From Ignavibacteriota bacterium (GTDB taxonomy: Bacteria; Bacteroidota; Ignavibacteria; UBA10030; UBA6906), in NCBI GenBank assembly GCA_003158475.1, contig PMJR01000130.1:60590-101192 (forward strand): a DNA stretch of 40,603 nucleotides. The letters are read 5' to 3'. Shown here one piece after another: positions 1,965 to 34,395 of this stretch. A program made the translations under genes and the position numbers. The notes under the pieces are model-generated. The model worked only from the letters and a program-made list of their open reading frames with translations, was not told where the DNA came from and did no database searches. Positions within the stretch are counted from its first letter, which is position 1; the number at the start of each line of letters is the position of its first letter.

Positions 1965-1966
1965 GG

Positions 1967-3946: not shown

Positions 3947-3951
3947 GTTCC

Positions 3952-3979
3952 AATATATTATCTCCGGAGTACGAATCAA
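3952..3979 (-). promoter_or_regulatory. Candidate promoter of the SGNH pair
   Basis: On the minus strand TTGATT (3979-3974) and TATATT (3957-3952) are separated by 16 nt, close to a sigma-70 pattern. Transcription would begin at about 3946, which is the proposed ATG itself, implying a leaderless transcript. No Shine-Dalgarno sits at normal spacing. If the real start were the GTG at 4069 this site would be internal and meaningless. Confidence 0.35.
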
Positions 3980-4101
3980 AACGGAGGAAACCGCTTCGGC
4001 GGGACCCACTCCGCGCGGACTCTTCTTCCATGGAACCTCCGCCGCCCCGCACAGTGCGCACGTCGCCACGAGCGCCCGGCGGGAATTCCGCCCGGCGTCC
4101 G

Positions 4102-4196: not shown

Positions 4197-5678
4197 TTGA
4201 AGAATATTGTTCGTGATATGACATTGATTGGAGCTCCGCCACCTGCGGACGCGAATGTGCTCCCGGCATTTTCACAGGAACATTCAATCGGGCCCGGGTG
4301 GGTGAAGGATGCCGTCTTTTATCAGATCTTTCCCGAACGATTCTGCAACGGGGACACGACGAACGACCCTCCGGGGACGGAGCCATGGGGGGGAAAGCCT
4401 TCGACGAGGAACTTCTTCGGAGGAGACATACGGGGGATCGTGAGCCGGCTGGAGTATATCGCCTCGCTGGGGGTCAATGCGCTCTCCCTGAACCCTGTTT
4501 TCGCGTCAGGGAGCAATCACAAGTACAACACGAGAGATTACCTGCGGATCGACCCGGCGTTCGGTGATGAAACGGTTTTCAGGGAACTGGTGGATTCCTG
4601 CCACGCGCGCGGCATACGCATCATACTGGACGGCGTGTTCAATCACACCGGGGTTGATTTCTTCGCATTCGCCGACCTGAAAAAGAACGGGGCGAAATCG
4701 AGATATGCGGGATGGTACAATGTCCGCAGTTTCCCCGTCGGTCCTGTGGGGAAGCCGAACTACGATTGCTGGTGGGGCTACGGAGGCCTTCCGAAACTCG
4801 TGACGGGAAATCCGGACGTCCGGCGGTACCTGTTCGACGTCACGCGCCACTGGCTCTCGGCCGGGATCGACGGGTGGAGACTCGATGTGCCTAATGAGAT
4901 CCCGCATGAGTTCTGGATCGAGTGGCGGCGGCTTATGAAGTCCGTCAACCCCGACGCGTACATACTGGGGGAAATATGGGATGACGGGAGTCCCTGGCTC
5001 CAGGGGGACCAGTTCGACGGGGTGATGAACTACCCTTTCCGCGCATCTTGTGTTGACTTTTTTGCGGCGGGGAAGACTACGGTCTCGGAGTTCGATTCCG
5101 CGCTCGCCCGGCAGCGGCACGCCTATCCGCCGGGTGTCACGTTCGGCCTGTACAATCTTCTCGGGAGCCATGACACCGAAAGGTTTCTCACGCTCTGCCG
5201 CGATGACGTTGCGCTCTGGAAACTCGCCCTTCTCTTTCAGATGACATATCCGGGTGCTCCCTCGCTCTACTACGGGGACGAGGTGGGGATGACAGGGGGG
5301 AAGGATCCGGGTTGCCGCGGCACTATGGTCTGGGACCCTTTAAAACAGGACGGAGAGATGCTCCGGTTCACGCGGGATGCGATCGCGCTCCGGAGAGGAC
5401 ACGGAGTTCTGCGGCGGGGGAGCTTCGCCCCCCTCTGTCTCGACGACAACGCCCTCGTCTACGGGTTCGCGCGGGAGGAAGAGTCCTCCGCGGCGATCGT
5501 CTTCCTGAACCGCGGAGAGGGAGAAGCCCGTGTGGCGCTCCCCCGGACTCACGCGCCCTGTGTGCGTTCATGGAATCAGATCTGGCCTGCGGAAGGGCCC
5601 TCATACCCCCCGGAAGGGGATTCAATCATTGTGACGATTCCGCGGATGTCCGGAGTTGTCCTTGAGGGAGAGAAATAA
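4197..5678 (+). CDS. Cytoplasmic GH13 alpha-amylase / neopullulanase-like hydrolase
   Basis: A 493-residue glycoside hydrolase family 13 enzyme, expected to cut alpha-1,4 (perhaps alpha-1,6) bonds of maltodextrins by a retaining mechanism. The opening WVKDAVFYQIFPERF (35-49) is typical of neopullulanase/cyclomaltodextrinase-type enzymes. The four GH13 regions are intact: DGVFNH (145-150), GWRLD with nucleophile Asp230, GEIW with acid/base Glu259, and SHD with Asp326. The N-terminal CBM34-type domain common in that subfamily is absent. There is no signal peptide, so it should act on imported dextrins. The start is TTG preceded by GCAGGA; an ATG at 4218 without a clear ribosome binding site is the alternative. 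It is the first gene of the operon and ends 1 nt before the next start. Confidence 0.9.
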   Translation: MKNIVRDMTLIGAPPPADANVLPAFSQEHSIGPGWVKDAVFYQIFPERFCNGDTTNDPPGTEPWGGKPSTRNFFGGDIRGIVSRLEYIASLGVNALSLNPVFASGSNHKYNTRDYLRIDPAFGDETVFRELVDSCHARGIRIILDGVFNHTGVDFFAFADLKKNGAKSRYAGWYNVRSFPVGPVGKPNYDCWWGYGGLPKLVTGNPDVRRYLFDVTRHWLSAGIDGWRLDVPNEIPHEFWIEWRRLMKSVNPDAYILGEIWDDGSPWLQGDQFDGVMNYPFRASCVDFFAAGKTTVSEFDSALARQRHAYPPGVTFGLYNLLGSHDTERFLTLCRDDVALWKLALLFQMTYPGAPSLYYGDEVGMTGGKDPGCRGTMVWDPLKQDGEMLRFTRDAIALRRGHGVLRRGSFAPLCLDDNALVYGFAREEESSAAIVFLNRGEGEARVALPRTHAPCVRSWNQIWPAEGPSYPPEGDSIIVTIPRMSGVVLEGEK

Positions 5679-5679
5679 C

Positions 5680-8600
5680 GTGAAGAGAACGGGTCTCATG
5701 ATCGTGGTTGTCGCGCTGGCCGCTATGTCCCCGTTGGCGCGCGCACAGGACAGTGTCGATGTGACATTCCGTTACACCAATCCATCCGTGGGTGGCGTGA
5801 CGCTTGTCGGCGAGTTTGAATCGACGCCATGGACCAGCGGTCTCCTGCCGATGACACCTCAGGGGGGGGGACTCTGGACACGGACAGCACGCCTTCTGAT
5901 AGGAGGGAATCCGAATCCGGACGTCGGCAAGACTCCCCCCGGGTCGTGGCAGTACAAGTTCTTTTACACGGGCGCCTCTTCATGGCCCAACGATCCGCTC
6001 AATCATCACGTGAATCCCGCCGACAACGACAACACGTACATTTACACAAGGGATCCGACGCTCTATCAGGTGTTGCCCAATCAACGCCAGCCGATGGTCA
6101 CGACATCAGCCCCCACGATTTCCTCGTATATATTCCCCAAGGTCGGTGCTACTGTTGACACGTCAACAATCCGTCTTATCATCGATGGCACGACGATAGG
6201 AGGACTTGGCGCTTTTTATGATACGCTTGCAAAGCAGCTTTCGTATCCTCTGGCGACGCCGCTGCTCAACGGGAGCCATACGCTCATCGTACGCGCGGCG
6301 AGCTCAGCCGGAGGATCGAGTGCCGATACCGTGACATTCTTCACTCAGGGAGGATATGTCCAAATTTCGAACCCGGGAGGATATGCAACGCGGACGTCAC
6401 AGAGGACGCTCTACGGCCTGGTCCAGGGGATGACTGTTACACAGGTGAAGATCGTCCGGAACAACACGGACACGACGGTCGCCTCTATCTCCGCGGGGAA
6501 TTTCAGCGCTGTCGTACCGCTTGCCGAAGGTCTGAACACGTTCAAGGCGCTTGCCGATTCTTCAGGGACGCAGGTCTCTTCAACTCCTGTCTCCTTTACA
6601 AGGCTCGTCAACCACATCCCGAACGCGCTGATATCGTTCAACGACCACGGGTCGATCGACCTCCAGGCAACGGGGAGCACATCCCCCGATTCGGGCCGGA
6701 CGCTGAAATTCATCTGGGGGGAGGATCCCTCGAACCCCGCGGTCATAGGAGGCGTCAACGGGAACACATCTCCTGTGGTCACCGTGTCGCGCCCTTCAGT
6801 CCAGGGAGAGTACTATTTCTCTCTTATTGCGACAGACACGAGCGGGAACAGCGACACAACACGGAACTACTTCACGGTCGGGCCGACTCCATCGATCGTG
6901 GTCCCGACGTTGGCCAGCGTCCCCCGGTGGGTCAGGGAAGGGCGCATGTACACGATGTTTTTCAAGATGCACACGGCCTCAGGCACGATAAACGCCGCAC
7001 TCCCTGACCTGAACAGGATCGCGTCAATGGGGTATAACATTCTCTGGGTGCTCCCGGTCATGAAAAACAGGGAGCCGATCAATAACGGTTCCGGGCCGGG
7101 GTACAACATCGTGGACTTCACGACGGTCGCACCCGAGTACGGGACGAACCAGGACATGAAGAATTTCATCGCACAGGCCCATTCGCTCGGGATGAAGGTA
7201 ATTCTTGACATCACGCCGAACCATACAAGCTCTTCACATCCTTTCGTGCTGGACGCCCGCACGTTCGGGGTGGCGTCACAGTACTGGACGTACTACCAGC
7301 ACCAATTCCTCGGGACGGGGATGGAATCCCAGTCGATGACGTCGGACGGGTTCGTCTACTACAGTGGAAACAGCGACGCTCTGCTGAACTACAACTGGGC
7401 CGACATCGACGCTTGCGCGTACATGATCGACGTCTACAGATTCTGGGTCCGGTCGATAGGCGCGGACGGCTACAGGTTGGACGAGTACTGGGGCCCCCAC
7501 TCCAGGGCGAACGGCGGAGCCGGCGGCGAAGGGGAAATGGGCGATCCCGTCCGGACTGCGCTCAAACACATCCATCCCGACATCGCGCTTCTGGGCGAGA
7601 CCGCAGGGACCGGCTTGGGGACGGAGGTGAGTTATGCCGACGATGGGGGGGGGCTCGACGAAGGATATGACTGGAACCTCAAAAACTACGTTCAGTCAAA
7701 TATCTGGGCTCTTGATGCCGCGTCGAGGCTGAACAACCTGGACGGAATCCTCAGGAACCACAGCGTCACACAGGCTATGGGGTATGTTCCCGGACCTAAC
7801 TCCTACTTTCTCCGGTTCCTCGAGAATCAGGACGAGGATAGGATCGCTTATGTATACTCAGTCGGAGGGACGGTCGATGCAGCCACCGCCCGCGCCCGCA
7901 CGATGCCCGTCTCCACTGCGGTGAACCTTGCAGTCGGGCTCCCGCAGGTCTACGCGGGACAGGAAGTCGGCCGGGGTCCAGGGATTGCCGACTCTTACGA
8001 TCGCCGTAGGGGTGTCCTCAACTTCGCCGATCCTGCAGGACTCATACTGATGCCTCACTATCAGAAGCTCGCGCAGATCAAGAAACAGTATCTCTGCTTC
8101 TCGACGCAGTCGATGGTCCTGCTGGGGACAGATGTGTCCGGAGTGTATGCGTATACGCGCCCGTACCCGGGTGTAAACGGCGTTGTTGTAGCGAATATCG
8201 ACGGCGCGCCGCACGACGCAAAAATCACATTGTCGACAATCGGAAATCCGGGCCCTCTCGTCGGGTTATCCGACGGGACGACGTACGTCGCGACTGACCT
8301 GTATAACGGCAACACGACACAGGCCGTCCAGTTCACGGGGGGGATAGACACGCTGAAAGTGTCGCTCCCCGCATACGGGTCGGCCGTGTTCGTGATCGAC
8401 AATGTCGCGCACACGCTCGTTCTCCCTCCGCTCACGGGGATCGGCGTGAGCGCCTCCATTGCGCCCCCCCGGGAATACAGCCTTTCCCAGAACTACCCGA
8501 ACCCTTTCAACCCGGCGACGACGATATCGTACCAGATCCGGTCGGCCGGAGGGGTGACGCTCAGGGTCTACGATCTCCTGGGACGCGATGTCGCGATGCT

Positions 8601-8733
8601 GGTGAACGAATACCAGGCGGCAGGTTCATACACAAAAACATTCGATGCCTCGCGGCTCTCCAGCGGCGTCTACTTCTACAGGCTTCAGGCCGGCTCATTC
8701 GTGAACACAAAGAAGATGGTCCTGGCAAAGTGA
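5680..8733 (+). CDS. Secreted multidomain GH13 alpha-amylase with T9SS sorting domain
   Basis: A 1017-residue secreted amylolytic enzyme. In order: signal peptide ending near ARAQ; a CBM48-like/E-set domain (about 25-150); Ig-like modules (about 150-405); a GH13 barrel from about 415; a beta C-domain; and a C-terminal T9SS type A sorting domain (930-1017) beginning with YSLSQNYPNPFNP. GH13 regions are DITPNH (from Asp510), GYRLDEYW with nucleophile Asp601, LLGET with Glu640, and LENQDEDR with Asp718. In the last region the usual His of HD is Gln717. The GTG at 5680, with GGGAGAG upstream, gives a clean signal peptide; a TTG at 5656 would overlap the previous gene. Two G9 tracts lie inside the frame. 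It probably acts on starch outside the cell or on its surface. Confidence 0.88.
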   Translation: MKRTGLMIVVVALAAMSPLARAQDSVDVTFRYTNPSVGGVTLVGEFESTPWTSGLLPMTPQGGGLWTRTARLLIGGNPNPDVGKTPPGSWQYKFFYTGASSWPNDPLNHHVNPADNDNTYIYTRDPTLYQVLPNQRQPMVTTSAPTISSYIFPKVGATVDTSTIRLIIDGTTIGGLGAFYDTLAKQLSYPLATPLLNGSHTLIVRAASSAGGSSADTVTFFTQGGYVQISNPGGYATRTSQRTLYGLVQGMTVTQVKIVRNNTDTTVASISAGNFSAVVPLAEGLNTFKALADSSGTQVSSTPVSFTRLVNHIPNALISFNDHGSIDLQATGSTSPDSGRTLKFIWGEDPSNPAVIGGVNGNTSPVVTVSRPSVQGEYYFSLIATDTSGNSDTTRNYFTVGPTPSIVVPTLASVPRWVREGRMYTMFFKMHTASGTINAALPDLNRIASMGYNILWVLPVMKNREPINNGSGPGYNIVDFTTVAPEYGTNQDMKNFIAQAHSLGMKVILDITPNHTSSSHPFVLDARTFGVASQYWTYYQHQFLGTGMESQSMTSDGFVYYSGNSDALLNYNWADIDACAYMIDVYRFWVRSIGADGYRLDEYWGPHSRANGGAGGEGEMGDPVRTALKHIHPDIALLGETAGTGLGTEVSYADDGGGLDEGYDWNLKNYVQSNIWALDAASRLNNLDGILRNHSVTQAMGYVPGPNSYFLRFLENQDEDRIAYVYSVGGTVDAATARARTMPVSTAVNLAVGLPQVYAGQEVGRGPGIADSYDRRRGVLNFADPAGLILMPHYQKLAQIKKQYLCFSTQSMVLLGTDVSGVYAYTRPYPGVNGVVVANIDGAPHDAKITLSTIGNPGPLVGLSDGTTYVATDLYNGNTTQAVQFTGGIDTLKVSLPAYGSAVFVIDNVAHTLVLPPLTGIGVSASIAPPREYSLSQNYPNPFNPATTISYQIRSAGGVTLRVYDLLGRDVAMLVNEYQAAGSYTKTFDASRLSSGVYFYRLQAGSFVNTKKMVLAK

Positions 8734-8780
8734 AGTCCCGTATCGGGTCCGATATGGACAAAAGTGGGGGGACCGGGGAA

Positions 8781-11072
8781 ATGAGAAGGGTTGCATCTCT
8801 GCTCCTGACGGTTTCCTTCGCTTCTCTCTATGGGGGGGCGCAGCCGGCTCCGAACCCGGGCGACGTCTACCCTCCCGCACCTGGGACAAAGCCCGTCTAT
8901 CTGAACATCATCTGGCACCAGCACCAGCCGCTCTATGTCAACCCGGCGACCGATCAGCTCTCCGGCCCCTGGGTCCGCACGCACGCCACAAAAGACTACT
9001 ACGACATGGCGGCGGGGCTGAAGAAGTTCCCGGATATCCACTGCACGATCAACCTCACTTCCACGCTCCTCCTCCAGCTTCGCGAGTACTACCTTGCGAG
9101 GCTTGGGCCGTATATCGATCTCGGCACATCCCGGATGGATGTCTCCGGTTTCCTCTCCCGCTGGCGGGGGAAGACCGATCCCTGGATCGATCTCGCGCTC
9201 CGTGATGCCTCGACGTTTGACTCTCGCGACAGGGACTATCTGTACAGGAACCCCTGGAATGCATTCAGCGTGTCCGATGTGCAGATCGCGAGGTTTCCGG
9301 AGTACAGGAGACTCCGGGAGCGGGTTTTGCCCGGGGAGGGTAGGGATGACCTGTTCTCGACACAGGAGCTGCGCGAGATAAAATTCTGGTTCTACCTCGC
9401 GGAGTTCGACCCCGATTTTCTCCTGGGGCCCGTGAATCTTGCCGACGGCACGGTCTGCGACCTGAGCGACTATGTCACGTTCCGGTCCGATTCGACGTTC
9501 GTGCTGAAGAAGAAGATCACGGAGGAAGACTGCGTCAGGATGGTCGTCGAGGCGTATAAAGTAATGGTGAACATCATACCGGTCCACCGCGCGCTCTCGT
9601 TCCATGGGGGGACTCCCCAGGTGGAGCTGATCACCACGCCGTATACGCATCCGATACTTCCTTTGATATATGATTCGGACATCGCCCGGATTTGCCAGCC
9701 CTCCGATTCACTTCCGGAGCGCTTTGCATTCCCGGAGGACGCGGAAGCCCAGGTCGCGAAAGCGGTCACGCTCTTCAAAACAATATTCGGACGGGCCCCC
9801 GATGGGATGTGGCCCGGCGAGGGGGCTCTTTCTCAGGGGGTGCTCCATGTGTTCGCCGACAACGGGATCCGCTGGAGCGCGAGCGACGTGAAAATCCTCA
9901 CGAGGTCCGATCCGCCGGACCAGCCGAACACCACCGTCTACAGATTCCCGGCGGGGAGCGGACGCTGGCTCTCCCTGGTCTTCCGCGACACCGACCTTTC
10001 GGACAGGATCGGGTTCACGTATCAGAACTACACGGGGGAGGAGGGGGCGGAGGACTTCATACGGGAGGTTCTCAGGCGGGCTCCCCGGAACGATGAGAAG
10101 GATCTCCTCCTGACTGTGATACTCGACGGTGAGAATGCCTGGGAGAACTACAGGAAGGACATGGATGGGAAGCAATTCCTGGGAGCGCTCTACAGGAAGC
10201 TGACCGCGCTTCACGCGCTGGGGCGCATCATCACGACAACGACCTCGGAATACATCGGGGGGAACCCGTCCAGGGGAATCCCTCCCCACACTCTTTCAGA
10301 CCAGCCCTCCATGCGGAGTCTCTGGCCCGGTTCATGGATCAATGCCAACTACGACACATGGATCGGGGAGAAGGAGGAGAACCTCGCCTGGAATTATCTG
10401 CTCCGGGCACGGAACGACCTCTCCCTCTCGGGCCTCCGGCAGCCCGACCCTTCGGCGCCCCCCCCGGCGGAGGGGACCACCGCCTGGTTCGCCTACCGGG
10501 CGTGGGAGGAGATGTACGCGGCCGAAGGTTCAGACTGGTTCTGGTGGTACGGGGATGACCAGACCGCACCGGGCGGGGACAAGCCGTTCGACACGGCATA
10601 CCTCATACACCTTGAAAACATATACGCGTTTGCACGGAAGGCGGGGTCATCGATCCCTTCGCCGGAATTTGCACCGATCATCACGGACGAAAAGGCCCCG
10701 GTCGCCGCACAGGGGGTGATGGCCAGGAGCGGCGCCGGACAGCAGTCGGTTCTCTTCACGTGCGACGCCCGCGACGTGCGTGTCCCGAAGTCTCTCTCTA
10801 TCGCCGGGAACCTCCCGCAACTCGGAAACTGGAAACCAAACGTAGTAATGATGCGGGACGACGGGCTGGAAGGGGACGAGAAATCAGGTGACGGCATCTG
10901 GTCGCTGCGGACTCTGGTCCCCGTGGGGACGGAAGTGCAATACAAATACACAAACAGCGGCGAGGCGGGGGCGTGGACACCCGGCGAAGAGTTTCCCGTC
11001 CGCCACAGGTCATTCACGGTTCGGAGCGCCTCGCCGGCGCTCCGGATCATCAGGGACACATTCGGCCGGTAG
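8781..11072 (+). CDS. Exported GH57 amylopullulanase-like glycoside hydrolase with C-terminal starch-binding-like domain
   Basis: A 763-residue family 57 enzyme, likely hydrolysing alpha-1,4 and possibly alpha-1,6 bonds of starch. The first GH57 region is WHQHQP (from His46). GMWPGEG holds the likely nucleophile Glu347, and LDGENAWENY holds the likely acid/base Asp449. The region TTPYTHPILPL is also typical. The C-terminal about 100 residues (IAGNLPQLGNW, later GDGIW and VQYKY) resemble a CBM20 starch-binding module. The ATG at 8781 opens a good signal peptide; the frame extends back to a GTG at 8730 that overlaps the upstream stop, but that would bury the signal sequence. No T9SS tail is seen, so the enzyme is probably periplasmic or secreted by another route. 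Confidence 0.87.
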   Translation: MRRVASLLLTVSFASLYGGAQPAPNPGDVYPPAPGTKPVYLNIIWHQHQPLYVNPATDQLSGPWVRTHATKDYYDMAAGLKKFPDIHCTINLTSTLLLQLREYYLARLGPYIDLGTSRMDVSGFLSRWRGKTDPWIDLALRDASTFDSRDRDYLYRNPWNAFSVSDVQIARFPEYRRLRERVLPGEGRDDLFSTQELREIKFWFYLAEFDPDFLLGPVNLADGTVCDLSDYVTFRSDSTFVLKKKITEEDCVRMVVEAYKVMVNIIPVHRALSFHGGTPQVELITTPYTHPILPLIYDSDIARICQPSDSLPERFAFPEDAEAQVAKAVTLFKTIFGRAPDGMWPGEGALSQGVLHVFADNGIRWSASDVKILTRSDPPDQPNTTVYRFPAGSGRWLSLVFRDTDLSDRIGFTYQNYTGEEGAEDFIREVLRRAPRNDEKDLLLTVILDGENAWENYRKDMDGKQFLGALYRKLTALHALGRIITTTTSEYIGGNPSRGIPPHTLSDQPSMRSLWPGSWINANYDTWIGEKEENLAWNYLLRARNDLSLSGLRQPDPSAPPPAEGTTAWFAYRAWEEMYAAEGSDWFWWYGDDQTAPGGDKPFDTAYLIHLENIYAFARKAGSSIPSPEFAPIITDEKAPVAAQGVMARSGAGQQSVLFTCDARDVRVPKSLSIAGNLPQLGNWKPNVVMMRDDGLEGDEKSGDGIWSLRTLVPVGTEVQYKYTNSGEAGAWTPGEEFPVRHRSFTVRSASPALRIIRDTFGR

Positions 11073-11078
11073 CAATCA

Positions 11079-13040
11079 ATGGAGACACTCACTTCATCCC
11101 ATCCGCTCGGCGATCTTGAGAATGCACTGAACCGGATGAAGAAAGAGCATGCGGGAAAAGCATTCCACTACGCGGTCCCCGGGCTCTGGGGATCCCCCGG
11201 GGGGGGAGGCAAAGCCGAGATCGTCGATCCGTTCGACTATTATATCGGGGCCGTACGGCTTGCCATCGAGGCGGTCCCTTCCCCGGGGCGCTCTGGCGCT
11301 CGCGCACGCCGCCTCTCCTCTGCGGGAGAATGGACGAAGGATGCGGTGATTTATAATATGTTCGTCCGCACGACGTCCGCGTTTGACCACGACGGGGACG
11401 GGCGTCTGGAGCTCCCGGTAAACCGGGAGGGGTTCCGTGAGACAGGGACGTTTCTGAAAGCAATCGCGATGCTCCCGTATATCAAACGGCTCGGGGCGGA
11501 CACGGTCCACCTTCTCCCTATCACCTCGATCGGACATGACGGGAACAAGGGGACGCTCGGTTCTCCCTACGCGATACGGAATCCGTACGAGATCGACGAA
11601 AACCTCTCTGAGCCTCTCCTCGGGCTTGACGCAAAGACGGAATTCAGGGCGTTCGTTGAAGCGGCGCACCGGATGGGGATCCGCGTCGTCGTGGAGTTCG
11701 CGTTCCGCACCGCGGCCAAGGACGCGGACTGGGTGAAAGAGCACCCCGAATGGATGTACTGGATCAAGGAATCGGTCGCGCTGCGTGATCCGGAACACCA
11801 GGACGAGTCACGGTACGGTTCCCCGTTATTCACGGAGAAGGAGCTGGAGCAGATTCACCTGGACGTGAAAGAGGGGCGGCTGGGGAACCTGCTGCCGCCG
11901 CACGAGGTATACCGTGCCTTCTTCACCCCTCCACCGGACTCCGCGAGTGTGAAGAGTGAAGAGGGGCGCTATATCGGCCGGCTGGCCGACGGGACCGGTG
12001 TGCGGATCCCCGGTGCGTTCGCCGACTGGCCGCCGGACGACAACCAGCCCCCCTGGGGGGACGTGACGTACCTCCGAATGTACACACACCCGGACTTCAA
12101 CTATATCGGCTACAATACGATCAGGATGTACGATACCCGCCTCACGCAGGCGGAGTACGTCAACCGCCCCCTCTGGGACAGGATCGTCGGGATCATTCCG
12201 TATTATCAGAGCGAATTCGGGATCGACGGGGTCATGATCGACATGGGACATGCCCTCCCGATGCAGCTGAAGGCGGAGATAGTGGCGGCCGCCCGGAAGA
12301 AGAACCCCGATTTCGCGTTCTGGGATGAGAATTTCTCCATCACGCAGAAAAGCAGGGAGGAGGGATATAACGCCGTGTTCGGGTACCTGTGGGTGGACGA
12401 GCATCACCCGGAAAAGATGAGGGAGTTCTTCACCCGGCTTGCTTCGGAAGCCTTCCCGATCCCGTTCTTCGGCACACCGGAAAACCACAACACGCCGCGT
12501 GCCGCGTCCCGTCCCGGCGGGACGACGTACGCCCGCTGGGCGCTTGTCATGAACAGTTTCCTTCCTGCTGTACCTTTCATACATTCGGGGTACGAACTGG
12601 CGGAACGGTATCCCATAAACACCGGGCTGGATTTTACACTCGACCAGATCCGGCAGCTTCCCTCGGAGCGGCTACCCCTGTTCAGCGAATACGGATACGA
12701 CTGGCTCAGTACGGAGGAGTTCACCCCCTTTGTCAGCGCGGTCTTTTCACTCCGGGCCCGCTACCGGACCCTCATCGTCGACCCTTCACCTCGGACGTTC
12801 CGCATTCTCCCTGCGGACAATCCGGCGGTGCTTGCATTCGCACGCGTCTCTTCGGGGGACGGGCTGAGGATCGGAGTCGTCGGGAACACGGATTTCCATT
12901 CCGGGGTTTCATTCCGGATGCATCTCGAGACGGGGAAGTCCACTGTCACGGACCTGCTCCACGGCGAGCACCTGGGTGTGCGGGACGGCGCACTCGAGTC
13001 CACACTGGGACCGGGAGAATGCATTGTCTTTCTATACTAA
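11079..13040 (+). CDS. GH13-fold protein resembling GlgE/maltosyltransferases, with altered catalytic motifs
   Basis: A 653-residue GH13-superfamily protein without a signal peptide. DWVKEHPEWMYW (217-228) recalls the GlgE and bacterial maltosyltransferase branch. The canonical motifs are changed. Region I reads VEFAFR (205-210) instead of DxxxNH. Region II is GVMIDMGHA: nucleophile Asp388 is kept but the preceding Arg of RxD is Met386. Region III keeps Glu417 in FWDENF. Region IV reads PENHNTPRA, with Asn471 where the stabilising Asp is expected. It may be a transferase or phosphorylase-like enzyme on maltodextrins, or a protein that binds but does not hydrolyse glucan. ATG starts 6 nt after the GH57 stop, so it belongs to the operon. 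Fold is confident; reaction is not. Confidence 0.75.
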   Translation: METLTSSHPLGDLENALNRMKKEHAGKAFHYAVPGLWGSPGGGGKAEIVDPFDYYIGAVRLAIEAVPSPGRSGARARRLSSAGEWTKDAVIYNMFVRTTSAFDHDGDGRLELPVNREGFRETGTFLKAIAMLPYIKRLGADTVHLLPITSIGHDGNKGTLGSPYAIRNPYEIDENLSEPLLGLDAKTEFRAFVEAAHRMGIRVVVEFAFRTAAKDADWVKEHPEWMYWIKESVALRDPEHQDESRYGSPLFTEKELEQIHLDVKEGRLGNLLPPHEVYRAFFTPPPDSASVKSEEGRYIGRLADGTGVRIPGAFADWPPDDNQPPWGDVTYLRMYTHPDFNYIGYNTIRMYDTRLTQAEYVNRPLWDRIVGIIPYYQSEFGIDGVMIDMGHALPMQLKAEIVAAARKKNPDFAFWDENFSITQKSREEGYNAVFGYLWVDEHHPEKMREFFTRLASEAFPIPFFGTPENHNTPRAASRPGGTTYARWALVMNSFLPAVPFIHSGYELAERYPINTGLDFTLDQIRQLPSERLPLFSEYGYDWLSTEEFTPFVSAVFSLRARYRTLIVDPSPRTFRILPADNPAVLAFARVSSGDGLRIGVVGNTDFHSGVSFRMHLETGKSTVTDLLHGEHLGVRDGALESTLGPGECIVFLY

Positions 13041-13052
13041 CGGCTGAAAACA

Positions 13053-14360
13053 ATGCGCGACATTCAACGAAAGCTGACGAACGGGTTCTACGCGCTGATC
13101 AGCCTCCCATCGACTGCGATGGGGTTTGCGCTCTCGATACAGATCTCCGCCCTGAGCTGGATACTCACCACCCAGTACCGCCTGGACATACACCAGGTCG
13201 GCATCGTCTGGGCGGCCGGCCCGCTGGCCGGCATATTCGGCCAGGTCATCATTGGTCTTGTGAGCGACAGGGTTTGGTTCTGGGGGGGGCGCCGGCGGCC
13301 GTTCATCATGATCGGCGGGGCTCTCGCAGCGTTGATGCTCTTTGCCCTCCCCAATATCCGGGCGGTCAGCGAGGCGCTCGGTGTCGGGAGTCTTCTCCTG
13401 GTGGCGACGGCGATCGCACTGACGCTCGACCTCGCAATCAACGTCAGCTTTAACCCCACACGCTCCGTCATCGCCGATGTCACACCCGAAGGGGATGCGC
13501 GGACAAAGGGATATACATGGATGCAGACGATCTCGGGCTTCTTCGGGGTGCTCGCCTATGTCATCGGCGCAGTGGCGGGAAATTTCGTCCTCATCTACGC
13601 GGGGGTCGGCATCGTCCTCCTTTTTTCCGTGATCCCGATACTGTTCGTTGCCGAACCGCGCGAGCTTTCGGGCGCCCCGGAGCCGATACGGAGAGCGGAA
13701 GGGGGTCCGGGACGGAGAGAAGGGAGAGGGACGCAGTGGGGACAACTGTGGCGCCTCTACGCGGCGCACGCGTTCTCCTGGATCGGCGTCCAGACGATGT
13801 TTGTCTATATCATCGCGTTCATACAGCAGAAGATGGTTTCCCCTGCATCCGCAGGGGATGCGGCCCGGGTGTCGGGGCAGGTCATCTCGATCTCCTTCGC
13901 CGTCCTGAACACCGTCGGGTTTCTTCTCCCGGCCCCTGTTCTCGAGCCTCTTGCGAAACGTTTTGGCCGCGTGCGGGTCCACGCCGCCGCCGTTGCCATA
14001 ATGGCGGCCGGTTACTTCGGCGTGGTCATCGGCGGCACATCTCCCCTTGCACTTTACATCCTCATGGGGGTGCTCGGGATCGGGTGGGCCTCGATCGTCT
14101 CCCTCCCGTTTGCCATCATGACCGAGAAAGTCGACAAATCGCGGACCGGGTTCTTCATGGGGATATTCAACCTCTCGGTGGTCCTCCCGCAGCTTTTCGT
14201 CAGCCTCGTCCTGGGGAAAGTCGTTCTCGACGCACCGGACAAATCCGTCATATTCATCATCAGCGGGTGTGCGCTCGCCCTCTCCGCCCTGGGCTGGATC
14301 TTCGTCCATGAAGGAAGATCCGCGGCCCCCCACGGGGCGGGACTGGAAGGGGGGACGTGA
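13053..14360 (+). CDS. SLC45-like MFS sugar transporter
   Basis: A 435-residue integral membrane protein with about 12 hydrophobic segments. The loop after the second segments reads SDRVWFWGGRRRPF, the signature of the sucrose/maltose-proton symporter branch of the major facilitator superfamily (SLC45, plant SUT and bacterial MalY-like carriers). It probably moves maltose or short maltodextrins across the inner membrane with protons. It lies between the GH13-like transferase gene and the ABC importer genes. A second paralogue closes the operon. The next gene overlaps its stop by 4 nt. A G8 tract codes for the Gly-Gly of the signature loop. Substrate is inferred from context. Confidence 0.83.
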   Translation: MRDIQRKLTNGFYALISLPSTAMGFALSIQISALSWILTTQYRLDIHQVGIVWAAGPLAGIFGQVIIGLVSDRVWFWGGRRRPFIMIGGALAALMLFALPNIRAVSEALGVGSLLLVATAIALTLDLAINVSFNPTRSVIADVTPEGDARTKGYTWMQTISGFFGVLAYVIGAVAGNFVLIYAGVGIVLLFSVIPILFVAEPRELSGAPEPIRRAEGGPGRREGRGTQWGQLWRLYAAHAFSWIGVQTMFVYIIAFIQQKMVSPASAGDAARVSGQVISISFAVLNTVGFLLPAPVLEPLAKRFGRVRVHAAAVAIMAAGYFGVVIGGTSPLALYILMGVLGIGWASIVSLPFAIMTEKVDKSRTGFFMGIFNLSVVLPQLFVSLVLGKVVLDAPDKSVIFIISGCALALSALGWIFVHEGRSAAPHGAGLEGGT

Positions 14361-15631
14361 CCCCCGCCGGAACCCGGTCTCCCCGGTGCGCTCAGGCGCC
14401 CCCCAGGCGCGGCCTCGTGCTGCTCGTTGCTTCCGTCGCGTGGCTCCTCGGCGGGTGCGCTCACCAAACGGGCGATACGGTCCGTATCACGATCTGGCAC
14501 CAGGACAGGATCGATGTCCGTGTGGTCCTCGAGAAACAGATCGGACGGTTCATGGCGCTCCATCCGGGTGTGAGGGTGGAACAGCTTTTCAAGGAGACGG
14601 AAGAGCTCCGTTCCGGTTTCATAATCGCGGCGCTCGCCGGTCAGGGGCCCGATATCGTGTATGGTCCCTCCGACCAGGTCGGGCCCTTCGAAACGATGCA
14701 GATCATACTGCCGCTTGAAGGAATATTCGACAGCACCTGGTGCTCCTCCTACGATCCCCTTGCGATGACCTGGTACAAAGGGCACCTCTATCAGGTGGCT
14801 GACAAACTCGGGAACCACCTCACGCTTGTCTACAACAAGAAGCTTGTTCCCGTTCCGCCGGCGACCGACCTGGAGATGATCGCCATCGGGAAGCGCCTCA
14901 CCACATCCCGGGGAGCGGGCCGTGGGGGGACATACGGCCTGGCATGGAACTACACGGAGCCGTTTTTCTTCATACCGTTCCTGACCGGGTTCGGCGGGTG
15001 GATCATGGACGGGGAGGGGCGTCCCGCGCTCGACACGCGCGCCACCATCGAGGCGCTCCGGTTCATCAAAGACCTCCGGGACGTCCAGAGGATCATCCCC
15101 AACGAGGCGGACTACGAAATTGCGGATATTCTCTTCAAGGATGGGAACGCGGCCATGATCATCAACGGCGATTGGTCCTGGGCGGGGTACCGGAATGCCG
15201 GGCTCGACATCGGCGTGGCGCCCCTCCCGAAGATCGCCTCCACGGGACTCTGGTGCGGGACGATGGTTTCCCCGAAGGGCTTCTCGATCAACGCCAATGT
15301 GACGCAAGAGAAGAAGAAATGGGTCGTCGAACTGATCCGCTATCTGATGTCGGAAGAGAACCAGATGGAGTCCACACGGGAGCTCTTTACGATGCCGACG
15401 CACATGCGCGTGCGCGGGAGCGAGTTCGTCCGGAACAACGAGATACTCAGGAATTCCCGGATACAGATCGACCACGGCCGCCCGATGCCCGTGGCACCAG
15501 AACTCAGGGCGATCTGGGATGCCATGCGCCCGAGCTACCAGGCGGTGCTTGCGGGGACGAAGACAGCGGAACAGGCCGCGCATGACATGCAGGCGATGGC
15601 CTTGCAACGCATCAGCGAAATGAACGAGTGA
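14357..15631 (+). CDS. Sugar ABC transporter substrate-binding lipoprotein (MalE-like, family 1)
   Basis: A 424-residue extracellular solute-binding protein, family 1. The N-terminal segment ends in a lipobox LLGGC with Cys34, so it should be a lipid-anchored periplasmic receptor. The mature part starts with VRITIWHQD and carries features usual for sugar receptors: a GQGPDI segment, YNKKLV, and MIINGDWSW in the second lobe. It should hand maltodextrins or a related sugar to the two permeases encoded next. The start is GTG in a GTGA overlap with the MFS stop, preceded by a strong GGAAGGGGGG ribosome binding site. Confidence 0.88.
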   Translation: MTPAGTRSPRCAQAPPRRGLVLLVASVAWLLGGCAHQTGDTVRITIWHQDRIDVRVVLEKQIGRFMALHPGVRVEQLFKETEELRSGFIIAALAGQGPDIVYGPSDQVGPFETMQIILPLEGIFDSTWCSSYDPLAMTWYKGHLYQVADKLGNHLTLVYNKKLVPVPPATDLEMIAIGKRLTTSRGAGRGGTYGLAWNYTEPFFFIPFLTGFGGWIMDGEGRPALDTRATIEALRFIKDLRDVQRIIPNEADYEIADILFKDGNAAMIINGDWSWAGYRNAGLDIGVAPLPKIASTGLWCGTMVSPKGFSINANVTQEKKKWVVELIRYLMSEENQMESTRELFTMPTHMRVRGSEFVRNNEILRNSRIQIDHGRPMPVAPELRAIWDAMRPSYQAVLAGTKTAEQAAHDMQAMALQRISEMNE

Positions 15632-15635
15632 GACG

Positions 15636-16541
15636 ATGACCGGGAGGTCCCTCAGGCAGAAACTCTTCGTGGCGGCGCTCGTCGTGCCGGCGTTCGTCGT
15701 CCTTTTCGGAGTTGTGGTCTACCCGTTCTTCTACAATCTCGTGATCTCATTCTCCAACATGAGCCTGAGGCACATACGGGACTGGAGACTCATCGGGCTC
15801 GGACAGTACATCAGGGTGTTCACGGAACCCTCCCAGCCCAATTTCTACTCGGTGTTCGTCAAGACGGTGATATGGACCGCCGTCAACATCTTCTTCCACG
15901 TCCTGATCGGCGTGTTCCTCGCGCTGGTGCTGAATCAGAAGGAGATCAGGGGAAAGGCCTTCTTCCGCGCCCTGCTCGTGCTCCCCTGGGCGGTCCCGCA
16001 GCTGATCGTGGCGCTGACCTGGCGCGGGATGTTCAACTACGAATACGGGGCCATCAATCTGATCCTGACCCAGTGGTTCGGCCTCCCCGCCGTGCAGTGG
16101 CTGAAACAGCCGTTCGAGGCCTTCTGTGCGGTGATCATCACCAACGTCTGGCTGGGGTTCCCGTTCATGATGGTGATCGCCCTCGGAGCACTGCAGAGCA
16201 TCCCCCGGGAACTGTACGAAGCCGCAGACATGGACGGCGCCTCCTGGCATCACAAGCTCAGGCATATCACCGTCCCTCTCATCCGTCCCGTGATGGTCCC
16301 CGCCATCACGCTCGGCACGATCTGGACATTCAACAACCTGAACATCGTCTGGCTTGTGAGCAACGCCGGCGAACCGTCCGACCAGACCCATCTCCTGGTC
16401 TCGTTCGTGTACAAGGCGGCGTTCAACTTCTACCGGTACGGCTACGGGGCCGCGCTCTCCATCGTGATATTCTTCATCCTGCTCGCCTTCAGCCTGACGT
16501 TCATGAGACAATCGAAGGCGGCGGAGAATGTCTATGGGTGA
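15636..16541 (+). CDS. Sugar ABC transporter permease (MalF-like)
   Basis: A 301-residue inner-membrane permease with six predicted segments and the binding-protein-dependent EAA loop ELYEAADMDGA (around 189-199), which docks to an ABC ATPase. It lacks the large periplasmic loop of E. coli MalF, as is usual in the LacF/UgpA-type members of this family. ATG begins 4 nt after the binding-protein stop. It forms a heteromeric channel with the next gene product. The operon has no ATPase gene. Confidence 0.88.
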   Translation: MTGRSLRQKLFVAALVVPAFVVLFGVVVYPFFYNLVISFSNMSLRHIRDWRLIGLGQYIRVFTEPSQPNFYSVFVKTVIWTAVNIFFHVLIGVFLALVLNQKEIRGKAFFRALLVLPWAVPQLIVALTWRGMFNYEYGAINLILTQWFGLPAVQWLKQPFEAFCAVIITNVWLGFPFMMVIALGALQSIPRELYEAADMDGASWHHKLRHITVPLIRPVMVPAITLGTIWTFNNLNIVWLVSNAGEPSDQTHLLVSFVYKAAFNFYRYGYGAALSIVIFFILLAFSLTFMRQSKAAENVYG

Positions 16542-17388
16542 GCCCGGGCGCACACGGAGCGGCAGATCCGCTCTCCGCATCCTCGCGAGCTACGCGGTGC
16601 TGGGCGTCTTCTCGCTCATTGCGCTCTTCCCGGTCCTGCAGATCGTCACGATCTCGCTCCGCCCCGCGGACAGGCTCCTCTCCACCAGCCTGGAGGTGAT
16701 ACCGAAAGACGCCTCGCTCGCGAACTATATCGCTCTCTTCACGGAACGACCCTTCTTTCTCTGGCTCGCGAACAGCACGCTCGTGGCTCTTGTTGTGACA
16801 TTCACGGGGGTCGCCCTGGCCTCCACGTGCGGGTACGCATTCTCGCGCTATGCGTTCACGGGGAAGAGGATCGGACTGCTCGGCCTCCTCGTGACGCAGA
16901 TGTTTCCGGCGACGATGCTCCTTCTCCCGATGTACATCATGCTGGTGATGCTTCACCTCATCAACACCTACCTGGGGATCGTGATCATGTACTCTGCGAC
17001 CGCGCTTCCGTTCTGTATCTGGCAGATGAAAGGGTACTACGACACGATCCCGACGAGCCTGGAAGAAGCCGGGAGGATCGACGGGTGCAACCAGTTCCAG
17101 GCCTTCCAGAGGATCATTCTCCCGCTTGCCGCCCCCGCGCTCGTGATCACCGCACTCTTTTCTTTCATGACGGCCTGGACGGAATACGTGGTCGCGGCGC
17201 AGATACTGCAGGATACCGACATGTGGACGCTTCCCCTCGGGCTCAAGTCGTTCGAATCCAATATGGGGTCGGAGTGGGGTCTGTACGGCGCCGCGTCGGT
17301 CATCGTCACAATACCGGTCGTCATATTGTTTCTCTCCCTCAGCAGGTGGCTCGTGTCGGGACTGACGCTCGGGAGCGTCAAGGGGTGA
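16534..17388 (+). CDS. Sugar ABC transporter permease (MalG-like)
   Basis: A 284-residue inner-membrane permease with six predicted segments and an EAA loop SLEEAGRIDGCNQFQAF that contacts the ATPase. It is the partner of the MalF-like protein and overlaps that gene by 8 nt. Two ATG codons are in frame, 16528 and 16534; I prefer 16534 because GGAG (16523-16526) is then 7 nt away rather than 1 nt. Together with the lipoprotein receptor it makes a maltodextrin-type importer. Energy must come from an ATPase encoded elsewhere, as with shared MsmX/MalK-type subunits in other bacteria. Confidence 0.87.
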   Translation: MGEPGRTRSGRSALRILASYAVLGVFSLIALFPVLQIVTISLRPADRLLSTSLEVIPKDASLANYIALFTERPFFLWLANSTLVALVVTFTGVALASTCGYAFSRYAFTGKRIGLLGLLVTQMFPATMLLLPMYIMLVMLHLINTYLGIVIMYSATALPFCIWQMKGYYDTIPTSLEEAGRIDGCNQFQAFQRIILPLAAPALVITALFSFMTAWTEYVVAAQILQDTDMWTLPLGLKSFESNMGSEWGLYGAASVIVTIPVVILFLSLSRWLVSGLTLGSVKG

Positions 17389-17410
17389 CCCGGGTCCGGG
17401 AAGGAACGCC

Positions 17411-18763
17411 ATGCAACAACCAATCAAGAGGTCGAGCGTGAGCAAGCCACGGCTTTCGTCTCTCGAAATCTGGAACATGAATTTCGGATTCTTCGGGATC
17501 CAGTTCGGCTGGGGCCTGCAGATGGCCAACATGAGCGCGATCTACCAGTACCTTGGGGCGAAGGAGGAGGATATCGCGTGGCTCTGGATCGCCGCCCCTC
17601 TGACCGGGCTGATCGTGCAGCCGATAGTCGGCTACGCGAGCGACCGGACATGGACAAGGCTCGGCCGCCGGAGGCCGTATTTCCTTGTCGGCGCAATCCT
17701 CTCGACGCTTGCGCTTATCGCGATGCCGAATTCCCCCAACGTCTGGATGGCGGCCGGACTCCTCTGGATGCTCGATGCGAGCATCAACATCACCATGGAG
17801 CCCTTCCGGGCGTTCGTGGGGGACATGCTCCCGCCTGCGCAGAGGAAGACCGGGTTCGCGATGCAGAGCCTCCTCATCGGTCTCGGCGCCGTCCTGTCGT
17901 CGGCGCTTCCCTGGGTTCTCTCGAACTGGTTCGGCGTCATGAATACGCCCGGGGGGAGCCTCATACCTCGAACGGTGCATCTCGCGTTTACCATCGGCTC
18001 GGCCGTGTTCGCGGCCGCAGTCCTCTATACGGTCGTCATGACCCGGGAGTACCCGCCGGACGACCCCGAAGCGTTTCGCGCCATGAAAGAGGCCTCCGCC
18101 GGTGCCGGCCGGGCCTTCCGAGAGATACTCCGGGGGATCCGCTCGATGCCGAAGGCGATGCGCCAGCTCGCAATCGTCCAGTTCTTCACCTGGTTTGCCC
18201 TTTTCTGCATGTGGATCTATTTTGTCCCCGCGGTGGCGACGAATGTGTTCGGCGGGGCGCCGGGGTCCCCCGCGTTCCAGCAGGGGAGCGAGTGGGGCGG
18301 GCTCTGTTTCTCGGTGTACAACGGGACGGCGTTTGCGTTCTCGTTCGTGCTTCTCGCGCTCGTACGGAAACTCGGCGCACGGGAGATACACAGGTGGAGT
18401 CTGATCGCGGGAGGGGCCGGTCTCGTCCTTGCGGTCCTCGTCAGCAACCAGTATGCGCTTCTCTTCTGCATGGTTCTCGTCGGCATCGCGTGGGCGAGCA
18501 TACTCTCGATGCCGTACGCGATGCTCTCGAACGTCATTGCAGCGGAGAAGATGGGGTTCTACATGGGGGTGTTCAATTTCTTCATCGTCCTGCCGCAGAT
18601 CCTGGCGTCCCTCGGGCTCGGGCTCCTCATGAAGCACGTTCTCGGCGGCAACCCGATGAACGCGATACTCATGGGAGGGTGTTCGCTCGGCGTCGCGGCA
18701 GCGTGCACGTTCCTGCTTCACGACGACGGTGACGCCCCGGCCGCCGTCGGAGGAGCCGCCTAA
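17411..18763 (+). CDS. Second SLC45-like MFS sugar transporter
   Basis: A 450-residue MFS protein with about 12 membrane segments and the loop SDRTWTRLGRRRPYF, the same signature as the MFS protein at 13053. It is probably a proton-coupled maltose or maltodextrin carrier. It is the last gene of the operon, begins 22 nt after the MalG-like stop, and has GGAAGGAAC before the ATG. It shares clear structural layout with the first MFS but differs enough in sequence to suggest an old duplication or separate acquisition, so the two may differ in substrate length. Its stop codon overlaps the stop of the convergent SDR gene. Confidence 0.83.
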   Translation: MQQPIKRSSVSKPRLSSLEIWNMNFGFFGIQFGWGLQMANMSAIYQYLGAKEEDIAWLWIAAPLTGLIVQPIVGYASDRTWTRLGRRRPYFLVGAILSTLALIAMPNSPNVWMAAGLLWMLDASINITMEPFRAFVGDMLPPAQRKTGFAMQSLLIGLGAVLSSALPWVLSNWFGVMNTPGGSLIPRTVHLAFTIGSAVFAAAVLYTVVMTREYPPDDPEAFRAMKEASAGAGRAFREILRGIRSMPKAMRQLAIVQFFTWFALFCMWIYFVPAVATNVFGGAPGSPAFQQGSEWGGLCFSVYNGTAFAFSFVLLALVRKLGAREIHRWSLIAGGAGLVLAVLVSNQYALLFCMVLVGIAWASILSMPYAMLSNVIAAEKMGFYMGVFNFFIVLPQILASLGLGLLMKHVLGGNPMNAILMGGCSLGVAAACTFLLHDDGDAPAAVGGAA

Positions 18764-19548
18764 GGGGGGCTGAACCCCCGCGCAAGAAACCCCCCGTCGA
18801 CAGGGATGCAGGCGCCGGTGATGTAGGATGCCTCGTCCATGCAGAGGAAGGCGACGGCCGCCGCCGCTTCTTCGGGTTCTCCAACGCGTCCCAGCGGGGT
18901 GTGGGCGACGACTGCCGCAAGGTAGTCCGGCTTCCCGAGAACGCCGGAGGCAAGCGGCGTCCGGATGTACCACGGCGCCACAGAGTTCACGCGTATCCCC
19001 TCCGGGCCCCACTCGGAGGCAAGCGTCCGCGTCATCTGCATCATCGCCGCTTTGCTCATTGCATACGGCGTGCCGGTGCCGAGCGCGGTCATCCCCGCGA
19101 CGGACGCGACGTTGACGATGCTTCCTCCCCCCGCGCTCACAAGAAGCGGGTACGCCTTCCTGCACATCTCGAATGCCGACGTCATATTCGTCTTCATGAT
19201 GCTGTCGTACTCTTCGGGCGTATACGCGGGCGTTTTCTTCCGGATATTGGTCCCGGCGTTGTTGACGAGTATGTCGAGCTTCCCCCACTGTTTGCCGATT
19301 CGCGCGAGGACCGCCTCCCGCAGGTGCCCGTCGGCGATGTCTCCGGGCATTCCCCGTGCCTCCCAGCCCTTTGCCGTCCACTCTTCCACGCGCGCACTGA
19401 CGTCGGGCGCGGAGCGCGCGACGATGAATACCCCGGCGCCGAGCGAGAGGAATTCCTCGGCGATGGCTTCGCCGATCCCTTTTGTTCCGCCCGTAATCAG
19501 GGCTTTCTTCCCCTTGAGCGTCCATCTCCTTTCGGCGTTCGCTGTCAT
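18760..19548 (-). CDS. SDR-family oxidoreductase (tropinone reductase-like)
   Basis: A 262-residue classical short-chain dehydrogenase/reductase, NAD(P)-dependent and cytoplasmic. It has the cofactor motif TGGTKGIG (19-26), NNAG (from Asn96), and the catalytic set Asn121, Ser149, Tyr162 and Lys166 with normal spacing. TPYAMSKAA and the C-terminal GACIPVDGG are also typical. The ATG at 19548 has a strong GGAGGG 8 nt upstream; the frame extends to 19626 but that part overlaps the debranching-enzyme gene and lacks support. Start and upstream stop overlap by 4 nt, so translation is probably coupled to the debranching enzyme. A sugar, sugar acid or polyol substrate is a guess from context. Confidence 0.88.
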   Translation of the reverse strand: MTANAERRWTLKGKKALITGGTKGIGEAIAEEFLSLGAGVFIVARSAPDVSARVEEWTAKGWEARGMPGDIADGHLREAVLARIGKQWGKLDILVNNAGTNIRKKTPAYTPEEYDSIMKTNMTSAFEMCRKAYPLLVSAGGGSIVNVASVAGMTALGTGTPYAMSKAAMMQMTRTLASEWGPEGIRVNSVAPWYIRTPLASGVLGKPDYLAAVVAHTPLGRVGEPEEAAAAVAFLCMDEASYITGACIPVDGGFLARGFSPP

Positions 19549-22500: not shown

Positions 22501-22556
22501 AGACCGCACGAGATCGTGACGAGCGAGCAAATGAGCACAAGCGATCTTCTCCTCAT
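19545..22556 (-). CDS. Exported glycogen-debranching-type glucosidase with glucodextranase-like C-terminal domain
   Basis: A 1003-residue exported enzyme. An N-terminal hydrophobic signal (about 4-20) may end in a weak lipobox around Cys17. Residues about 30-240 resemble the N-terminal beta domain of amylo-alpha-1,6-glucosidases. The (alpha/alpha)6 catalytic part holds YWGRDTFIALPG (295-306), GRIPNRV (338-344), YNTADGTPRF (351-360), TWMD (409-412) and HNGTVWTWLQGP, matching the GDE_C/GH133 family. The final about 240 residues, with IAIDADG and YFTLRF motifs, look like the DOMON-like glucodextranase C-terminal domain. It should remove alpha-1,6 branches or glucose units from glucans in the periplasm. 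It is encoded opposite to the main amylase operon but is clearly the same pathway. Confidence 0.83.
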   Translation of the reverse strand: MRRRSLVLICSLVTISCGLTRGAPEGKSPLDSLGIVCRGGPRTFCYTNRAGAFFYGETSRPSAPGWEGFTVEGHVFIEDYALEVDGVTLDRSAALSTVFPDFLRREYPGGIVEELRPADSIAAFVVTVTSPRPVEMKFIPLPGGAKGGADVLTKAGESSISIARKSHTHRTTQENFPVWVSLYAPGFSPDSSPGGGPESHAPGSLVAPRGKLHIVAAATGDTKGEALALARFAASTRTGLALRRRARMERLLGATSVLTSDGRFNRALSWAKLSLDALTVAGGGIYAGLPWFADYWGRDTFIALPGAALVTGRFTEARRILALFASFQQRDSLSTDCGRIPNRVTATDTAYNTADGTPRFVMMVREYAERSGDMHFALAMYPVVLRSIEGTLRYHTDSLGFLTHRDAETWMDAVGPDGPWSPRGNRANDIQALWAGQLDAGEYFATLLGDVVSARRWHDALLRLKGNFLRYFVTQGGIADRLREDGTPDMTLRPNQIFTAGLLDDIARDRMIDTVVSRLTYEYGVASLSQDDPGFHPWHDRPPFYPKDAAYHNGTVWTWLQGPLISLLCAAGREETSWTITRNSVHQMLDRGAAGTLPELLDAVPGPGESEPRLSGTFSQAWSLAEFIRNFYDDYLGLRFNRLTRSLSVEPKLPAGLGDVNARITVEGEDFVVNVKRAAPGDALRVSSSGNGDTTTLHALIHISGSTYLGAETRLPPRSHIEIIYAGAALRVTCNGAAWPARVSGKIIPGNPGSALTLARPRIAGNLKSLRGPGYPLLPHDIIMKRNPASHPIVDITLSPGADSPAYSYPRNPLFVPGSFSLRRFAVSADSQYAYFTLRFAALSDPGWHPEYGFQLTFAAIAIDADGVRGSGRDRIGRNAEVRLDSTHWYEKIIYVGGGIQMEDARGNVLTAYVPLKEDALHPFGDAASGTIRFALPTALLGHPDSSWTFTVVAGGQDDHGGSGLGEFRTVNRDRGEWNGGGKLRPGDPNIYGTITAAGGTTR

Positions 22557-34270: not shown

Positions 34271-34344
<74 letters not shown>

Positions 34345-34395
34345 CGACACTGCTCCGCACGATCTCACATAACAGGCAAAGGACCGTTCAACGCG

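Follow-up and report, generated by a model that had tools for sequence, protein, structure and literature searches.

The Asp/Glu/Asp triad, together with an Arg in region II, is treated as the signature of the GH13 family, and its absence is commonly taken as loss of activity. An ordinary GH13 enzyme is expected to lose most of its activity when the region-IV Asp or the Arg is substituted. The maltosyltransferase of Thermotoga maritima (1gju, 1gjw) carries the canonical Asp, Arg and Asp in regions I, II and IV. In GlgE of Streptomyces coelicolor, as presented in excerpts of a report on inhibitor complexes (PMC8238978), the catalytic set is Arg392, Asp394, Glu423 and Asp480; Asp480 binds the hydroxyls at C2 and C3, and Arg392 forms hydrogen bonds with both the nucleophile Asp394, which is rotated off the ligand in that complex, and Asp320, on our reading the region-I Asp. 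A departure from the rule is BmaN1 of Bacillus megaterium, which according to excerpts of its description (PMC5347038) is an active alpha-amylase despite a changed catalytic triad, with soluble starch as a substrate and glucose and maltose as products. It belongs to subfamily GH13_45 in the excerpts of a further source, which also mention GH13_48 members without catalytic residues (PMC11239784). An altered triad can thus go together with activity in a GH13 group, and loss of the stabilising Asp is no proof of inactivity.

Here we describe a conserved group in which the signature is broken. We recognised no description of it in the open-licence PubMed Central papers that we searched, and we know of no measured activity for any of its members. 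If the group is active, it would be a conserved exception to the signature rule, with three positions replaced alike in all 138 non-redundant members. It came to light in the genome of an Ignavibacteriota bacterium, in a stretch of 40,603 nucleotides that was analysed as a whole and is called the window below.

An altered catalytic set in a GH13 fold

On the plus strand at 11079..13040, an ORF with an ATG start encodes a 653-residue GH13-fold protein whose five catalytic positions read E206, M386, D388, E417 and N471. Region I (residues 203-228, VVVEFAFRTAAKDADWVKEHPEWMYW; 11685..11762, plus strand) contains V205-E206-F207-A208-F209-R210, with E206 in place of the canonical Asp. In region II (residues 381-394, GIDGVMIDMGHALP; 12219..12260, plus strand), M386 stands for the canonical Arg and D388 is kept at the nucleophile position. 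Region III (residues 412-421, FAFWDENFSI; 12312..12341, plus strand) keeps E417 at the acid/base position, and region IV (residues 462-476, PFFGTPENHNTPRAA; 12462..12506, plus strand) has N471 in place of the canonical Asp. No signal peptide was seen by eye, and the gene is present as a single full-length copy in the source genome (3.75 Mb, 153 contigs).

A first-pass annotation of this DNA had already read these residues (VEFAFR, M386, D388, E417, N471) and had named two observations that would speak against them, namely shifted motifs and close homologues with the canonical Asp and Arg. We looked for both and found neither, and the residues proved to be in the correct register. In HMMER alignments, EFAFRT, GVMIDMGHALP, WDEN and PENHNTPR of the window protein lie against DFIPRT, GARLDMGHALP, AEEL and VETPDTPR of 1gju, and ENHNTPR lies beneath ENHDQPR of Thermotoga neapolitana 4gkl. 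In an AlphaFold model computed from the window protein and 58 relatives (mean pLDDT 92.6, falling to 71 over residues 341-350; pTM 0.94), the catalytic residues sit in or just after strands 202-208, 384-388, 413-416 and 463-465. Alignment and strand positions rule out a shifted motif, and the presence of the same residues in the homologues read rules out a point variant or a sequencing error. Because sequence alignment and fold matches agree, the motifs are in register and the three canonical residues are truly replaced.

The fold itself is that of GH13: the (beta/alpha)8 barrel and the domain layout are found in the model and its PDB matches, and PF00128 scores above its cut-off. Foldseek ranks 1gju first (E 4.4e-47), and so does VIA-align 2 (Z 40.5, rmsd 2.8, 581 residues aligned; next entry Z 31.7); all 50 PDB matches listed (Z 40.5 to 28.1) are, by their titles, GH13-type enzymes or homologues. 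By sequence, 1gju is again the best PDB match (phmmer E 1.3e-83, residues 17-559), followed by T. neapolitana AmyB (4.4e-21) and GlgE (2.1e-17 at best). The likeness to the T. maritima maltosyltransferase covers nearly the whole chain, including its N-terminal part, with 35% identity over 509 aligned residues, and the RT of region I, DMGHALP, YW and the domain-B QPxWxDVT are common to this enzyme and the altered group. The two differ in the catalytic set, where canonical D/R/D is opposed to E, M/L and N, and at positions 347, 349 and 470 too.

From the segment DWVKEHPEW (residues 217-225), the first-pass annotation had linked the protein to the GlgE/maltosyltransferase branch. The T. maritima maltosyltransferase is the nearest solved relative, but the link to GlgE is loose. 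GlgE (3zss, 5cgm) has the GH13 fold and an HPEW segment after region I, yet it is much more distant from the window protein than the T. maritima enzyme is (VIA Z 31.6 vs 40.5), and an HPEW/HPDW segment is likewise present in that enzyme, in T. neapolitana AmyB and in one canonical GH13 from the genome of the window. Pfam presumably holds models of the GlgE-specific N- and C-terminal domains; at E 0.001, none of the domains listed for the window protein is named for GlgE, in a scan that included no GlgE control.

Three positions exchanged as one set

To follow the altered residues across bacteria, we brought together 214 sequences (several of them the same genome twice), which reduced to 142 at less than 90% mutual identity. 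All except four, 138 sequences including the window protein, are of the altered type, with identity to the window protein down to 34%. At sites 206/386/388/417/471 they read EMDEN (123), ELDEN (11), -MDEN (3) or EMD-- (1); 134 are complete at all five sites and the four partial sequences agree with them. A mixed catalytic set occurs neither among these 138 nor among the four canonical sequences. Taken singly, E206 is found in 135/135, D388 and H391 in 138/138, and E417, H470 and N471 in 137/137, the unequal totals being due to partial sequences; position 386 is Met in 127 and Leu in 11. Thus, the group retains the GH13 Asp nucleophile and Glu acid/base and has lost the region-IV Asp, the region-II Arg and the region-I Asp. 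Position 416, next to the acid/base, varies (D 75, E 36, S 18, others 8). Within the home order (23 sequences, counting the window protein), D416 is invariant, like E206, M386, D388, E417 and N471. Besides M/L386, the altered group is set apart by residues that at least 97% of its members share and none of the four canonical sequences has: G152, L160, E206, F251, G300, A313, P319, Y331, T347, R349, L355, F419, H470, N471, L534 and R589 (with gaps in some canonical rows at 251, 300 and 589).

Record titles place the altered members under ten NCBI phylum names (two rows are nameless), and at least six phyla are left when related names are merged (Ignavibacteriota with Chlorobiota and Bacteroidota, Lentisphaerota with Verrucomicrobiota, Atribacterota with Bipolaricaulota). 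Since the same replacements recur across relatives from several phyla, the altered set is no oddity of one genome. The gene is a conserved variant within the maltosyltransferase branch of GH13 and not a damaged or broken one. Two genomes of the home family do have an interrupted copy, with one internal stop in one case (L010, G019) and a gene in two pieces in the other (L031, G005).

The sampling was as follows. In the home phylum, 125 of 395 genomes had a match at E 1e-30; sequences were read for 55 of them and the remainder were counted by profile score. A named genome collection gave 530 relatives, of which the best 80 were kept, and because of this choice the named loci lean towards similar sequences; the closest of them mostly bear the labels Ignavibacteriae or Bacteroidetes. 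Matches were found in 6 of 100 genomes of an approximate Bipolaricaulota/Atribacteria group, in 24 of 39 Riflebacteria and in 3 of 251 Chloroflexota, two of the latter (G534, G638) being counted by score alone. Three of the Riflebacteria matches are canonical; 20 of the 21 altered ones were read (G802 excepted), two of them (L186, L187) without region I. Among the 60 nearest relatives of the source genome, 54 had a match at E 0.001 and 32, at E <1e-100, were counted as carriers, with motif residues read for all except G040 and G013. The weaker matches, mostly around residues 117-227, were treated as other GH13 proteins, and the one that was read (L002) is a canonical GH13; a 49-residue N-terminal fragment (G007, E 1.2e-4) was counted as a non-carrier.

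The four canonical sequences, with the set D/R/D/E/D, are 1gju and three Riflebacteria proteins of about 613-624 residues (L188, L189, L190; E 1.8e-63 to 4.2e-66). These three have 24-27% identity to the window protein and group with 1gju. In their genomes, the canonical protein (L188:4992-6845 in one of them) is found in place of the altered one, and GH77 is also absent. A quick tree of 61 rows, for which three further GH13 proteins served as outgroup, gathers the altered sequences in one group (SH-aLRT 92) and leaves the canonical maltosyltransferases outside it in a group of their own (88); the program issued a long-branch warning and both values are below its mark of 95. The idea of a separate transferase subgroup, raised in the first-pass annotation, therefore gains as regards separateness, from the tree and from a nearest solved relative that is a transferase, and transfer itself stays a prediction. 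We call the group GH13-derived because, read strictly, it departs from catalytic features that define GH13 and also from those of its nearest relative; it is probably transferase-like and a proven member of neither activity group.

A maltodextrin-type gene cluster

The altered gene is the fourth of eight plus-strand ORFs at 4197-17388, separated by gaps of at most 12 bases or overlapping. By its predicted content, this run is a maltodextrin-type cluster. It opens with a canonical GH13 (4197..5678) in which no signal peptide is evident by eye and whose best NCBIfam models, maltodextrin glucosidase and cyclomaltodextrinase, score below cut-off. Next come a GH13 with a C-terminal type IX secretion sorting domain (5656..8733) and a GH57 with CBM20 (8730..11072), which has a signal-like N-terminal segment by eye and ends 6 bases before the altered ORF. 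Downstream of the altered gene lie an MFS sugar transporter (13053..14360; MFS_2, with a sucrose/proton symporter model below cut-off), a MalE-like binding protein (14357..15631) and a MalF-like permease (15636..16541), the models of both being below cut-off, and a second permease of the binding-protein-dependent type in the MalG position (16528..17388). The gene at 31398-32453, apart from this run, encodes an ABC ATPase whose matches, MalK being one of them, stay below cut-off.

Distribution against amylomaltase

Amylomaltase MalQ (GH77, PF02446) belongs to a different family, and PF02446 has no match at E 0.001 in the window protein, nor any in the source genome. The same holds for every carrier in the home phylum. 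Of its 395 genomes, 125 have the altered protein, 181 have GH77, 89 have neither and none has both; among the 60 nearest relatives the numbers are 32, 18, 10 and again zero, and the union of these searches gives 151 genomes with the altered protein, 191 with GH77 and no overlap. Such counts are inflated, since genomes related by descent are not independent. The GH77 model itself gave matches in 8 of 14 control genomes. By family code, the altered protein occurs in 11 and GH77 in 37 of approximately 56 families (the highest code seen), with 1 shared against 7.3 expected (P 2e-5); in that shared family (f3), one genome (G027) has GH77 and no altered protein, and another (G037) has neither. Riflebacteria show the same exclusion: among 39 genomes, 21 have the altered and three the canonical protein, 11 have GH77, four have neither and none has both. 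The approximate Bipolaricaulota/Atribacteria group points the same way (altered 6, GH77 21, none shared, n=100), at a P of 0.34 that is not significant.

Exclusion does not extend to every phylum. In a co-occurrence test with 40 carriers and 40 controls (every sixth of 250 Chloroflexota, G447-G696), GH77 was found in 20 of 32 Chloroflexota carriers vs 16 of the 40 controls, in both Verrucomicrobia/Lentisphaerae carriers tried, and in 22 of the 40 carriers overall. Because GH77 co-occurs with the altered protein in Chloroflexota, the latter is no general substitute for GH77, and this idea is upheld only in part: exclusion in the home phylum and Riflebacteria, co-occurrence in Chloroflexota and in two Verrucomicrobia/Lentisphaerae genomes. 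A stand-in role for amylomaltase is supported in some lineages only. In those without GH77, the altered protein would be a candidate for the missing maltodextrin transferase, and in the home phylum and Riflebacteria the two proteins may share a metabolic role.

A transferase with a rebuilt -1 subsite?

Our preferred reading, held with moderate confidence, is that the protein works in the cytoplasm as an alpha-1,4-glucan transferase like the T. maritima maltosyltransferase, that its -1 subsite has been rebuilt and that it replaces amylomaltase in some lineages. It would move maltosyl or longer maltodextrin units between chains in a two-step retaining reaction, with D388 as the nucleophile and E417 as the acid/base, and could thereby act in glycogen and maltodextrin turnover where GH77 is missing. 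Nucleophile and acid/base are fixed while the residues around them have been exchanged, from which we infer a working retaining enzyme. At the -1 subsite, the counterparts of GlgE Arg392, Asp480 and Asp320 are all exchanged: Arg has given way to Met or Leu, the region-IV Asp to Asn and the region-I Asp to the longer Glu. The contacts lost in this way may be supplied by T347, R349 and H470, which are invariant or nearly so and absent from the canonical sisters; that R349, T347, H470 or E206 takes over is, at this stage, a guess. We also envision, more tentatively and with some doubt, a broader picture: a GH13-derived clade of at least six phyla, kept in lineages without amylomaltase, that works with two of the classical active-site charges, has exchanged the other three positions as one set and uses new contacts from E206, R349 and H470. 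Such a clade would represent a second solution to glycosyl transfer in the alpha-amylase fold.

Gene neighbours in other lineages and rival readings

In all 13 Chlorobia-like loci that were fetched with wide flanks (L194-L206; families f25, f27 and f40, of which f27 is presumably Chlorobiaceae), the gene directly downstream on the same strand belongs to one and the same sequence cluster, whose tested members are PfkB-family kinases, so that it forms a conserved two-gene unit with the altered GH13. The cluster member taken from L194 is a PfkB-family kinase whose PDB match, 3kd6, is titled carbohydrate kinase; its NCBIfam matches (ribokinase, nucleoside kinase and others) are all below cut-off. 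Green sulfur bacteria are, to our knowledge, not known as maltodextrin importers, and a part in the turnover of glycogen would be in keeping with this. In six loci a member of a phosphofructokinase cluster (tested with L115) is a same-strand neighbour, within 300 bases in five of them, and in one locus (L148) a starch-synthase-type glycosyltransferase is such a neighbour. The gene context offered no clue in Anaerolineae (LytR_CpsA_Psr, protein kinase), in Riflebacteria (HEAT and TPR proteins) or in some further loci (UvrC, tRNA-modification genes).

The sugar kinases bring in the strongest of the rival readings, in which the protein is a catalytic enzyme with another donor, that is, with a modified, phosphorylated or different sugar at -1. 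A donor other than ordinary maltodextrin would account for the joint exchange of the residues round the nucleophile, and in fact the three positions change as one set without a mixed sequence among 138, with sugar kinases adjoining in two lineages. We nevertheless regard this reading as unlikely: many residues of domain B and of the C-terminal part are shared with the T. maritima maltosyltransferase, the window copy sits inside a maltodextrin-type cluster, and the PfkB kinase matches specific kinase models only below their cut-offs.

A fused domain in a further lineage can be read in another way. In five of the six carriers of the approximate Bipolaricaulota/Atribacteria group (L144:9089-11941, L151, L163, L191 and L192, from genomes G439, G440, G766, G765 and G768), the altered GH13 stands behind an N-terminal segment of about 310 residues, in which a DGNHR motif is conserved and DUF4032 matches weakly; the sixth genome (G446) is without it. 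A fused sugar kinase, which would be a sign of a maltose-1-phosphate route, was looked for in this extension and no kinase match was found. Stop-to-stop reading accounts for what looks like an extension in L125 and for roughly the first 140-155 residues in L191 and L192, and these parts were judged not real. The fusion would suit a glucan-binding or regulatory protein that retains the fold and is non-catalytic or nearly so, as would Asn for Asp and Met/Leu for Arg at positions regarded as essential. The first-pass annotation had also raised a non-hydrolytic glucan protein. A dead enzyme, however, is expected to vary at the nucleophile and the acid/base, so their invariance (D388 138/138, E417 137/137) among members as far apart as 34% identity from the window protein speaks against a dead protein, and we consider this reading improbable, somewhat more so than a change of donor.

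Least probable of all, in our estimate, is a weak hydrolase like BmaN1, which in the excerpts of PMC5347038 likewise starts region I with Glu and lacks the stabilising Asp, but which belongs to another GH13 branch, carries His where the altered group has the stabiliser-position Asn, and is also changed at the nucleophile (Lys, with an adjoining Asp) that the altered group keeps; moreover, the nearest relative is a transferase and the cluster already has a canonical GH13 at 4197-5678. The transferase with a rebuilt -1 subsite remains the reading that we prefer.

Other genes of the window

On the minus strand beyond the maltodextrin-type cluster, a 715-residue ORF without NCBIfam match (17378-19525) is followed by a 1003-residue protein (19548-22556) that combines an amylo-alpha-1,6-glucosidase domain with a C-terminal module of the glucodextranase type. 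On the other side of the cluster, also on the minus strand, 39-4069 encodes two proteins in tandem that share one layout, a GDSL-type hydrolase domain and, after it, TPR repeats. Further along the plus strand lie a 791-residue protein (27990-30362), which has a deacetylase domain of the PIG-L type and matches an NPCBM-associated model weakly, and the sole tRNA found in the window, a tRNA-Arg (ccg) at 34271-34345.
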